Position numbers and translations under genes: made by a program
Notes under the pieces: generated by a model
The model's database searches: none
Seen by the model: only the letters and a program-made list of their open reading frames with translations
Told to the model about the DNA's origin: nothing
NCBI GenBank assembly: GCA_015068445.1
Contig: SVKN01000001.1
Span: 1 to 64,000 of the forward strand
DNA from: Oscillospiraceae bacterium
GTDB lineage: Bacteria; Bacillota; Clostridia; Oscillospirales; Butyricicoccaceae
Length of the DNA: 64,000 nucleotides
Direction: 5' to 3'
Part shown: piece after piece, positions 18,747-39,207 of the stretch
How positions within the stretch are numbered: the stretch's first letter is position 1
Layout of the letters: every line of letters begins with the position of its first letter

Positions 18747-19629
18747 CGTCGTTCCCCCTTTCATACAGCTGACATGTCCTCGTTCTCCCCTGCCGCGACA
18801 AAAGCAGGACGCGCCGGAACAGGCCGCTGTCCGTCAGCGCGCGGTAAAGCGGTCGGCGCGTCAGATCGCCGATCTGTTCGCCATGGGCCGTCGCCAGAAA
18901 GCCGACGCCCGTATAGGACGCCTCCAGCATCGCCTCTGTATCGCGCTTCGACGTGATCTCATCCACCGCGATCAGCTCCGGCGACATCCCGCGCAGCAGC
19001 AGCTCGATATCCCGGTCCTTCTGCCCGCCGCGCAGGACGTCGCACCGCCCCAGATCGAAGCCGCCCAGCTCACAGCGGCAGTCGGCGACGCAGACGCGGA
19101 CGCTGCGCGACAAAACGCGGCACAGGTCGCGCAGCAGCGTCGTCTTTCCAACGCCCGGCGGCGACAGGATCAGCGTGCTTTCACCGGCGCCGCGCGACGC
19201 CAGAAAGGCGCCAAGCTCCTCGGCGATCCCCGTGAGCGGCCGCGCGATGCGCAGGTTGACCGAGGTCACATCCGTCAGCACGCTGCCGCGATCGTTTTCG
19301 CTCCATCTGCCGCAGAGACCAAGGCGGTGCCCGCCCCGGACGGTGATGAACCCCTCCCGGACCTGCTCCTCGTACCGGTGGTACGACAGCTCTGTGGCCT
19401 TCGCCGTCACCTGCTCCAGATCGTCCTTCGTGACGAGCGTGCCCGGGATCTCCTGCTGCTTTCCTGACGTCACGACGGCCATGGGCCTGCCCTGCCGCAG
19501 ACGGAACTCCTCCACCCACGGACGGTCCTCCTCCGGGATCTGAAACGCGCTGCGCCAGAGGCTCTCCGGCAGCAGTCCGGCGGCCAGGATATAGCTTTTC
19601 ATCGCTTCTCGTTCCTGTATTCGTTTCAT
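18553..19629 (-). CDS. spoIIIAA: Stage III sporulation protein AA (frame extended at the 3' end)
   Basis: Cytoplasmic secretion-type ATPase that starts the spoIIIA operon. The N-terminal domain (FRLRQGRPMAVV, GFITVRGGHRLGLCGR) is followed by the ATPase core with Walker A LSPPGVGKTTLLRD, ADCRCELGG, the Walker B region SPELIAVDEI and FLATAHG. Family members end soon after the VLLLSRQG strand (about residue 281). Here the frame runs on for almost 80 residues of low-quality sequence, antiphase over spoIIIAB. Adding one base to the G run at 18787-18790 would give the end ...SRQGENEDMSAV and a TGA at 18763-18761 overlapping an ATG of spoIIIAB as ATGA. I read this as a probable one-base deletion, real or from sequencing. 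Upstream, GGGAGG precedes the ATG and CATAAGAT is a weak sigma-E-like -10. Confidence 0.9.
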   Translation of the reverse strand: MKRIQEREAMKSYILAAGLLPESLWRSAFQIPEEDRPWVEEFRLRQGRPMAVVTSGKQQEIPGTLVTKDDLEQVTAKATELSYHRYEEQVREGFITVRGGHRLGLCGRWSENDRGSVLTDVTSVNLRIARPLTGIAEELGAFLASRGAGESTLILSPPGVGKTTLLRDLCRVLSRSVRVCVADCRCELGGFDLGRCDVLRGGQKDRDIELLLRGMSPELIAVDEITSKRDTEAMLEASYTGVGFLATAHGEQIGDLTRRPLYRALTDSGLFRRVLLLSRQGRTRTCQLYERGNDDAEDAWCLDDHRFVLGAGAEPEPGDDGASARTAGTDQGAAGDQDRDPVSPRAAAGDRVAAGTRL

Positions 19630-36985: not shown

Positions 36986-37012
36986 CGCGGCCGCACGAGC
37001 GGCCGTGTTTTT
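36986..37012 (+). terminator. Terminator of nth
   Basis: 9-bp stem (36986-36994 with 36999-37007, one G-T pair), loop acga, then TTTTT. Between convergent genes. Confidence 0.88.
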
Positions 37013-37472
37013 ATCGCAGCGACAGCTGCTTGAGCTCGCAATCGTAAACGCCGTTCGTCACCGTCAGGATCGCGTAGTACTGATTGTACCGGCTCATGGT
37101 GCCGGGGTTGAGCAGCAGCAGGCCGCCGTGGTACTCGGCGTTCTGCATGTGCGTGTGGCCGTACAGCACCACCTGCGCGTCCCGGGCATAGCCCTCGGAC
37201 AGGAGCACGTCCATCGTTCGCTTGACCATGTAGCGGTGGCCGTGGGTCATGAAGATCCTCACGCCCTCCCAGACGAGCTCCCGCGTCAGCGGTTCTTTGG
37301 AGAAAAAGTCGCAGTTCCCCGCGACGAACATCGTTTTGGCGGGCAGGGTGACGCCGCCGAAATCATCGGAGCCGTCGCCGCAGAACAGCAGGCCGTCGGG
37401 CTTCTCCAGCGCCAGCAGGCGCATCAGCCCCTCACGGTTGCCGTGTGAATCGCTGCAGACACATATTTTCAA
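37011..37472 (-). CDS. YfcE/MJ0936-type metallophosphoesterase
   Basis: 153-residue calcineurin-like phosphoesterase. Metal-binding motifs: CSDSHGN, FCGDGSDDF, VAGNCD, MTHGH and YGHTH followed by LNPGTMS. Family members cleave phosphodiesters or pyrophosphates in two-metal sites; the cellular substrate is unknown. The ATG faces the start of the small-gene cluster on the other strand. Confidence 0.93.
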   Translation of the reverse strand: MKICVCSDSHGNREGLMRLLALEKPDGLLFCGDGSDDFGGVTLPAKTMFVAGNCDFFSKEPLTRELVWEGVRIFMTHGHRYMVKRTMDVLLSEGYARDAQVVLYGHTHMQNAEYHGGLLLLNPGTMSRYNQYYAILTVTNGVYDCELKQLSLR

Positions 37473-37577
37473 GTGAGGTCACTTCCTTCGGTAACGCAAC
37501 TTTTCAAAGCTGCGGCATATAGTATTGGTAAGACGGCGCGACGCCGCCGATCCATCAATCGAACGGGAGGTAGATCC

Positions 37578-37859
37578 ATGCCAGGCGAATACGATTCCAT
37601 GGCGCGGGCCTTTATGGGCACGCCCCAGGGGGCGAGGATCATCGGGTTTCTCGACCAGCTCAACCGGCTGATGCAGGGGCCGGAGGGCCGCGAGCTTTTG
37701 TCGCTGCTGGGCGGCAGCGGCGGTGAGGCGCTGAAGCGCGCCGCCCAGTCGGCAGCGGTCAGCGGACGCGACCCGGCGCGGGCGCTGCTGTCGGGGCTGC
37801 TGAGCAGTCCGGAGGGCACGGCCCTCGTGGCCAAGATCATCGAGCTTTCGGGGGTGTGA
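37578..37859 (+). CDS. Unrecognised 93-residue protein, first of a three-gene cluster
   Basis: I do not recognise the family. The product starts MPGEYDSMARAFMGTP and consists of short amphipathic helices with many Gly, Ala and Leu residues; LLSLLGGSGGEALKRAA and LLSGLLSSPEGTALVAKII look like two related Leu-rich units around a central QGPEGRELL. No signal peptide or membrane segment. The start at 37578 has GGGAGG eight bases before it; the longer frame has none. The -10-like CATATAGTA about 55 bases upstream of the start fits sigma-K-type promoters. The next gene overlaps by four bases (GTGA). Confidence 0.75.
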   Translation: MPGEYDSMARAFMGTPQGARIIGFLDQLNRLMQGPEGRELLSLLGGSGGEALKRAAQSAAVSGRDPARALLSGLLSSPEGTALVAKIIELSGV

Positions 37860-38203
37860 GCGTGCCCGCAGGTGAAAAACAGGATGCCAAAGCGCTGGCA
37901 GACCTGCTTTCAAACATACTGAAAAGCAATATCCCTTTACAGGCTAAAGAGCCTCCGGCCGGCCCGGCCGCACCCGATCCGCCTCTCGATCGCGGCAATC
38001 TCGGCCGCATTTCCGCCGTGCTGCCCGCCGTGATGCAGGCCATGTCGGGCAAGGGCGAGCTGCTGCGGCCGGAAAAGATCAACCTGATCCGCGCCTTCCG
38101 TCCCTATCTGGACGAGGAACGTCAGGGGGAGATCGACCACGCCATCCGCATGGCGAACGTGGCGCAGGCGGCCAAGACGGCGCTGAGCGCGCTGGGGCGG
38201 TGA
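37856..38203 (+). CDS. Unrecognised 115-residue protein, second of the cluster
   Basis: Family not recognised. The start is GTG, either at 37856 (overlapping the stop before it as GTGA) or at 37862. The N-terminal third is polar (KALADLLSNILKSNIPLQ), followed by a Pro/Ala-rich linker (KEPPAGPAAPDPP) and a helical C-terminal half with RISAVLPAVMQAMSGKGELL and INLIRAFRPYLDEERQGEID. It shares the Leu-rich, Gly-rich style of the first gene and might interact with it. No membrane segment. Confidence 0.72.
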   Translation: MSVPAGEKQDAKALADLLSNILKSNIPLQAKEPPAGPAAPDPPLDRGNLGRISAVLPAVMQAMSGKGELLRPEKINLIRAFRPYLDEERQGEIDHAIRMANVAQAAKTALSALGR

Positions 38204-38207
38204 GCGC

Positions 38208-38432
38208 TTGTACAACCGATACGTGCGCGCCTGCGGTCCGCCGCCCCCCTGCCCGCCGCCGGACACGGGGCCGAAGCCGCCCGGCATCCTGCCGGGCGGA
38301 CTGCGTCTGCCGAAGATCGACGCGGACACGATCCTGCTGCTGGTGATGGTCTATTTCCTCGTCCGCGACCCGGACGACCGCGGCAGCGACACGCTGCTGA
38401 TCATCGCCGCGCTGTTTCTGCTGGGCCTGTGA
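38208..38432 (+). CDS. Small Pro-rich membrane protein, third of the cluster
   Basis: 74 residues from a TTG five bases behind the previous stop. The N-terminal half is very Pro/Gly-rich (CGPPPPCPPPDTGPKPPG), followed by KIDADTILLLVMVYFLV and a second hydrophobic stretch (TLLIIAALFLLGL) at the C-terminus. Two short membrane segments are possible. Family not recognised. A hairpin follows at 38448-38471, so the three genes form one unit. Confidence 0.68.
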   Translation: MYNRYVRACGPPPPCPPPDTGPKPPGILPGGLRLPKIDADTILLLVMVYFLVRDPDDRGSDTLLIIAALFLLGL

Positions 38433-38447
38433 CCTGGCAGACAAGTT

Positions 38448-38471
38448 GAGCAGAGCCTTTTGGCTCTGCTC
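38448..38471 (+). terminator. Hairpin after the small-gene cluster
   Basis: Perfect 10-bp stem (38448-38457 with 38462-38471) and a TTTT loop; the tail atttcattt is only partly T-rich. It lies between convergent genes. Confidence 0.65.
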
Positions 38472-38478
38472 ATTTCAT

Positions 38479-39207
38479 TTATTCCGGCTGCGTTCCGTCG
38501 GGCAGCGTGAACAGGCCGCTGACGTCCTCCGGCATGTCCAGCAGGTCGCAGGACATGGCGTAGACGAGCAGATCGTTCTCGAAGCTCTGAGCGCCGATCA
38601 ACAGACCGCTGTCGACGGAGATGTAGTAAAGCACTCTGTAGCCGCTGCGGCTGTCCCGGGACTCGACGTAGATGCAGTACTGCTCGTTGTACTGGGAATA
38701 ATCCGCCGCCAGGATATCGCTCTGTGGCAGGGACAGAATACGCTCATAGGTGGGGATGAAAACGTAATCGTCCTCGGTGAAGCTGCCGAGGTTCCCCTTG
38801 TAGTAGCTCGGCTCCCCTTCCTCCCAGAGATAGACCTGCCCGTTGCTGATCAGCGCGTGGCTCTGTGGCGTGTCGCCGCGGTAGCGGATGGTGTGGCTGC
38901 GCTCGCCGTCCACATAGCTCTCGGCGGTGGCCGTCGACTGGCCGGTGGAATAGTAGATCGTGCTGTTGGCCGAGATATGATACCGGTCCGGCCGCGAGAG
39001 CGCGGCGACGACCTTTTTGATGTTGTCCTTCCCCACCGTGACGGACTGCAGCAGCTCCAGATTCGGCGCCTCGTCCGTGAGCGCCACGTCGATCTTCTCG
39101 TCGCTGTCGCCGGGCAGGACGATGTCGCCGCTGGTGCGGCTGCCGACGAAGGGCGAGCCGAACATATTGAGCAGCAGGATCACCAGCACCGCCACGGCGG
39201 CCGACAT
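38479..39207 (-). CDS. Membrane-anchored extracytoplasmic protein of unknown function
   Basis: 242 residues: an N-terminal hydrophobic anchor (AAVAVLVILLLNMFG) and a long exported, acidic, Tyr/Ser-rich domain with alternating strands (YHISANSTIYYSTGQSTATA, YRVLYYISVDSGLLIGAQSF). The pattern recalls LolA/RseB-like beta folds, but I cannot assign a family. The start is uncertain: no ribosome site precedes the ATG at 39207, and the frame continues upstream as DRIKTRSVRIW, a basic stretch that would suit the cytoplasmic side of the anchor, without a standard start codon. It directly follows wecB and tagO, so a cell-surface polysaccharide role is possible. Confidence 0.72.
   Translation of the reverse strand: MSAAVAVLVILLLNMFGSPFVGSRTSGDIVLPGDSDEKIDVALTDEAPNLELLQSVTVGKDNIKKVVAALSRPDRYHISANSTIYYSTGQSTATAESYVDGERSHTIRYRGDTPQSHALISNGQVYLWEEGEPSYYKGNLGSFTEDDYVFIPTYERILSLPQSDILAADYSQYNEQYCIYVESRDSRSGYRVLYYISVDSGLLIGAQSFENDLLVYAMSCDLLDMPEDVSGLFTLPDGTQPE

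Follow-up and report, generated by a model that had tools for sequence, protein, structure and literature searches.

A conserved cluster of three small-protein genes, restricted to genomes with sporulation markers, is a candidate mother-cell sporulation operon in Clostridia

Results

Three small, tightly packed genes, here called P1, P2 and P3, were analysed in the first 64,000 nucleotides (the window) of contig SVKN01000001.1, which belongs to the 2.28 Mb, 103-contig genome of an Oscillospiraceae bacterium (GCA_015068445.1). At a probability of roughly 0.6, we propose that P1-P2-P3 is a mother-cell sporulation operon, most likely a late one dependent on sigma-K, and that it encodes small structural proteins of the spore surface with P3 as their anchor. 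The genes are conserved and co-linear, were found within the class only in genomes that carry sporulation markers, and are preceded by a promoter motif of the mother-cell type.

P1 (37578..37859, 93 residues), P2 (37856..38203, 115 residues) and P3 (38208..38432, 74 residues) lie on the forward strand and start with ATG, GTG and TTG, respectively, all as the initial annotation had described them. The stop of P1 and the start of P2 share the GTGA overlap that it had pointed out (37856-37859); the gap between P2 and P3, given there as five bases, is four (38204-38207). A ribosome-binding site for P1, GGGAGG, can be read directly from the sequence on the same strand at 37565..37570. Among the same 40 related genomes, relatives were obtained for P1 in 27 (E <= 0.01), P2 in 27 (E <= 0.01) and P3 in 29 (E <= 0.1), and when eight sequences of each gene were compared the third codon position was about twice as variable as the second (0.565 vs 0.205 for P1, 0.638 vs 0.304 for P2 and 0.585 vs 0.276 for P3); for both reasons the three are more than chance open reading frames (ORFs). 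Some relatives of P3 have ATG followed by the same YNRY, which backs the TTG start assigned to it. Of 58 P3 rows, pooled by name from alignments A2 and A6 and used for all counts of P3 anatomy, 30 begin with MY and 16 with MYNRY.

Gene order was followed in 91 stretches around matches (31 + 60). Most of these had been picked for a P2 match, and finding P2 in 87 of them therefore carries no independent weight. Whether the trio stays together, a question raised with the initial annotation, was answered by the flanking genes: across the class, P3 lay directly downstream of P2 in 82 of the 87 P2 loci and a P1-like gene directly upstream in 71 (E < 0.01 for each). The P1-like figure is the weakest of the three counts, its distant members coming from an iterated profile of a helical, low-complexity sequence. 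Trimmed sequences were used for the P1 alignment; in an earlier clustering the longest ORF often extended upstream, which had brought in ORFs antisense to the adjacent phosphoesterase gene. The four stretches without P2 comprise three fetched for other matches (L114-L116) and one (L148) that has no ORF with an ordinary start at the P2 place, but in which P1-like and P3-like genes flank it (L300).

Some loci depart from this arrangement. Two genomes carry two P2 loci each (G275, L194/L195; G321, L196/L197), the second copy being accompanied by a P1-like gene and no recognisable P3. At two loci of family f36 (L165 and L176), a 71-77-residue ORF with a hydrophobic stretch replaces P1, and P2 is longer.

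Of 299 genomes drawn from across the phylum, 34 had a P2 match, and five of these 34 belong to the same class as the window. Eleven loci from other classes (L302-L312) were inspected. A P3-like ORF follows P2 immediately in four (L302, L306, L307 and L308) and P3-like ORFs lie within about 1 kilobase of P2 in L303 and L305; L304 and L309-L312 have no P3-like ORF, and their short matches may not be P2 proper. Near P2 in L303, L306 and L307 there are one or two extra tiny P3-like hydrophobic ORFs of 41-60 residues, and L310 and L312 each hold two copies of a 60-83-residue ORF with the P2 motif KPYL/KPFL.

Co-occurrence with sporulation was assessed in an even sample of 293 genomes from the window's class, each at least 90% complete, with SpoIVA and SpoIIIAE as markers of spore formers. 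Matches were found for P2 in 154 genomes, for SpoIVA in 219 and for SpoIIIAE in 222; 227 genomes had at least one marker and 66 had neither. Of the 227 marker-positive genomes, 154 had P2, and all 66 marker-negative ones lacked it (Fisher p = 9e-27, uncorrected for shared ancestry). Every P2-positive genome thus carries SpoIVA or SpoIIIAE, and 147 have SpoIVA. The restriction of P1-P2-P3 to genomes with sporulation markers, likewise marked for checking when the cluster was first noticed, is well supported by these counts. The window's own genome has spoIVA and spoIIIAA. The latter is a sporulation gene inside the window (18784-19512, reverse strand; TIGR02858, E 3.5e-60), and so on the same contig as the trio, at a distance of 18 kilobases.

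A predicted sigma-K-type promoter precedes P1 on the forward strand (37497..37524), consisting of a -35 element CAAC (37497-37500), a 15-nucleotide spacer and a -10 element CATATAGTA (37516-37524). According to Saujet et al. (PMC3789822), sigma-E and sigma-K promoters have a common -10 and distinct -35 elements (ATA and AC, respectively), and the sigma-K promoter of sigK is CATATAAT with AC. The same -35 rule is given for B. subtilis by Eichenberger et al. (PMC517825), who trace it to a glutamine/arginine change conserved among endospore formers. Compared with a sigma-K -10 pattern of CATATAAT or CATAnnnTA and an AC-type -35 some 15-18 nucleotides upstream, the window has CATATAGTA preceded by CAAC at 15 nucleotides, and it has CAAC where a sigma-E promoter would have ATA.

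The 120 bases upstream of the assigned first gene were scanned in 69 loci, with 200 shuffles as the expectation. CATATAnT was found in 34 loci (1.8 expected, shuffle maximum 5; background across the loci 0.015 per 120 bases) and the two-part motif MAC-N15-17-CATAnnnT in 33 (1.3 expected, shuffle maximum 4); one locus had a site of the sigma-G type. CATATAnT was present in 19 of 21 regions when the window is counted with its family (the first 20 stretches), and in 15 of 48 elsewhere. A predicted mother-cell promoter ahead of the trio is well supported by this enrichment.

A CATAnAnT box was present in 43 trio regions, and the -35 that went with it was AC only in 27, ATA only in eight and neither in eight. 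The sigma-E gene spoIIIAA was used as comparator because spoIVA and dpaA proved to be poor ones, with CATA[TC]AnT in just 2 of 30 and 4 of 16 regions, respectively; spoIVA is often preceded by a LysM-type gene. At spoIIIAA, where the comparison rests on just the 12 of 30 upstream regions that have a box, none was AC only, five were ATA only, two had both and five neither. An AC-only -35 in 27 of 43 trio regions, against 0 of 12 at spoIIIAA, makes the trio look like a sigma-K unit, and on this element we infer sigma-K rather than sigma-E.

P1 was predicted by AlphaFold2 to be all-helical, with six helices (mean predicted local distance difference test, pLDDT, 77; predicted template modelling score 0.47). 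The N-terminal helix of P2 is weakly conserved and its linker differs greatly in length between sequences, that in the window being one of the shorter; a conserved C-terminal helical domain follows (AlphaFold2 pLDDT 89-97 across about residues 71-110). Within this domain, proline P83, in the motif RPYL/KPFL, is invariant in 82 sequences. Both P1 and P2 are Leu-rich and helical, and to that extent share the style ascribed to them in the initial annotation; homology between them was not detectable with hhalign (probability 1.2% and 8.7%). P3 opens with (M)YNRY and continues with a Pro-rich linker and two short hydrophobic stretches separated by an acidic loop. The two stretches are present in all 58 rows (median 12 and 13 residues, longest 13 and 16), and the loop between them has a median of 8 residues and is net negative in 55. 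The stretches are short for ordinary membrane spans and could instead form a shallow membrane hairpin.

Profile searches assigned none of the three proteins to a known family; such an assignment would have spoken against the initial view of the cluster as an undescribed system. The window copies of P1, P2 and P3 had no match of weight in Pfam, NCBIfam, PHROGs or PADLOC. With Pfam, no family was matched by more than one of 82 P2 rows (alignment A4), at most four of 51 P1-like rows (A5) matched any one family (MgtE_N, best E 9e-4), and the 50 P3 rows (A6) matched none, the SpoVM family included. With NCBIfam, for which P1 was scanned as the window copy alone, no family was matched by more than one of the 82 P2 rows or by any of the 50 P3 rows. 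Beyond stray rows, relatives of P1, P2 and P3 thus matched no known coat or sporulation family of either database. Sequence profile searches of the PDB gave nothing covering a domain for any of the three; rows of TAL effectors were taken as repeat artefacts, no stretch passing alone. Foldseek returned no match at E <= 0.001 for P1 (best Z 5.6 in a second look at 127 chains) or for P2, and P2 had no match in phage or plasmid records. No such trio was found in literature titles and abstract openings, a weak negative since these are not searchable by sequence.

The unit ends in a hairpin terminator of its own, as first proposed: an 11-pair stem on the forward strand at 38447..38472, followed by an imperfect, interrupted T-run and lying between convergent genes. 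The predicted folding energy of this stretch is -25.6 kcal/mol (z = -4.5 relative to shuffled sequences). The convergent gene downstream (38479-39207, reverse strand) encodes a 242-residue product with no Pfam match and an N-terminal hydrophobic stretch, and is conserved beside the trio at 15 loci from the set of related genomes. Upstream lies a divergent metallophosphoesterase gene (37011-37472, reverse strand; Metallophos_2, E 1e-24). For the other loci, neighbours were annotated in one member per cluster. Near relatives keep an endonuclease-III-like gene together with the phosphoesterase upstream of the trio; from recognition of the sequences we take the former to be nth and another neighbour to be trpS. 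A type III pantothenate kinase gene is among the neighbours of some loci. In 10 of the 91 loci, all distant ones, a SleB-type cortex hydrolase gene (PG_binding_1 + Hydrolase_2) lies downstream on the same strand, and a Germane-domain gene is found near the trio in some distant loci. We regard the SleB-type and Germane-domain neighbours as supportive, not decisive.

Discussion

The limitation to spore formers and the predicted mother-cell promoter motif both favour the initial suggestion that the trio might be a spore component, and P1-P3 are probably parts of the spore shell not yet described. Under the operon that we propose, RNA polymerase with sigma-K would transcribe P1-P2-P3 in the mother cell, most likely at a late stage, and the three small non-enzymatic products would belong to the coat or to the zone where it meets the outer forespore membrane. 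The two hydrophobic stretches of P3, folded into a shallow hairpin that the acidic loop closes, would place this protein on or in a membrane, and P2 would be held by the Pro-rich arm of P3 and by its N-terminal YNRY. With its variable linker and its conserved helical domain at the C-terminus, P2 may act as an adaptor, and P1, as a compact helical protein, may pack with both P2 and P3. The membrane association of P3, the location at the spore surface and any contact among P1, P2 and P3 are inferred from the features described above.

Several observations weigh against this proposal. No P2 match was obtained in 73 of the 227 marker-positive genomes, and therefore either the module is not general to sporulation or some copies are too diverged for the profile. 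Seven of the 154 P2-positive genomes have no SpoIVA match, all seven having SpoIIIAE. SleB genes are usually forespore genes, so a SleB neighbour is not by itself an argument for the mother cell. Where the CATAnAnT box was searched for, 26 of 69 upstream regions were without it, and eight of the 43 boxes found are paired with an ATA -35. Finally, the spacing of 15 in the window is below the 16-18 called classical in C. difficile (PMC3789822).

It is possible, if unlikely, that the products form a small mother-cell membrane assembly other than the coat, which acts in a late process, for example the transfer of calcium-dipicolinate, the control of proteases or the synthesis of cortex, and in which the P3 loop binds calcium. 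Such an assembly would fit the conserved negative charge of the loop (55 of 58 rows), the late mother-cell type of the promoter and the SleB-type or Germane-domain gene nearby in some loci. However, P1-P3 contain neither a catalytic motif nor a known domain, the length of the loop varies, and calcium binding by it is a supposition.

The timing could also differ from that proposed. We think it rather improbable that the trio is an early mother-cell operon, transcribed with sigma-E and acting in engulfment or in assembly of the basement layer: the ATA -35 at eight of the 43 boxes is what such an operon would have, but AC without ATA, found at 27 of the 43 and at none of the 12 spoIIIAA boxes, points to the sigma-K stage.

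Smaller still is the chance that the cluster is a mother-cell lysis module in which a holin-like P3 helps to free the mature spore. P3 is small and has two hydrophobic segments, the promoter is of the late mother-cell type, and a cell-wall hydrolase gene adjoins in 10 loci; yet segments of median 12 and 13 residues are too short for the ordinary membrane-spanning helices expected of a holin, P3 had no holin match in PHROGs, and the hydrolase is SleB-like and near the trio in just 10 of 91 loci. That P1-P3 are ordinary uncharacterised housekeeping genes, linked to sporulation through shared ancestry alone, would agree with several housekeeping-like neighbours (phosphoesterase, type III pantothenate kinase and, by our recognition, nth and trpS) and with a co-occurrence test made without phylogeny control, but is hardly credible given the absence of P2 from all 66 marker-negative genomes and the sporulation-type promoter, which is independent evidence.

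As a mother-cell sporulation operon whose promoter and timing are predicted, the trio would be a concrete candidate in the question of how clostridial spore surfaces form. It offers genes to delete and to tag, and a further marker of likely spore formers for metagenome work.

Comparison with known systems

The closest parallels are the sigma-K coat operons of C. difficile (cotA, cotE, CD0596-cotF-cotCB and CD2399-cotJB2-cotD), late mother-cell units whose promoters, like the one predicted for P1-P2-P3, pair a CATA-type -10 with an AC-type -35 (PMC3789822). They differ in their products, as P1-P3 match no coat family in Pfam or NCBIfam. SpoVM, which is one amphipathic helix, offers a likeness to P3. 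It is described as a small forespore-membrane protein that recruits SpoIVA (PMC3533761), and P3 may anchor its partners in a similar manner; however, SpoVM has fewer than 30 residues (PMC3533761), whereas P3 has 74, with a Pro-rich arm and two hydrophobic stretches.

Galperin et al. (PMC3533761) state that SpoVID, SafA and CotE are missing from clostridia, whose coats probably contain proteins yet to be identified. P1-P3 could occupy the functional slot of these Bacillus coat-assembly proteins in organising the clostridial coat, although no sequence relation to them was found and P1-P3 are small and not universal; to call the trio their replacement is speculation. In the boldest form of this idea, which we think unlikely, the widespread trio would be the clostridial answer to the missing Bacillus proteins: the P3 hairpin, whose acidic loop perhaps binds calcium, would anchor P2 and P1 at the outer forespore membrane, and the three together would be the base for the coat.
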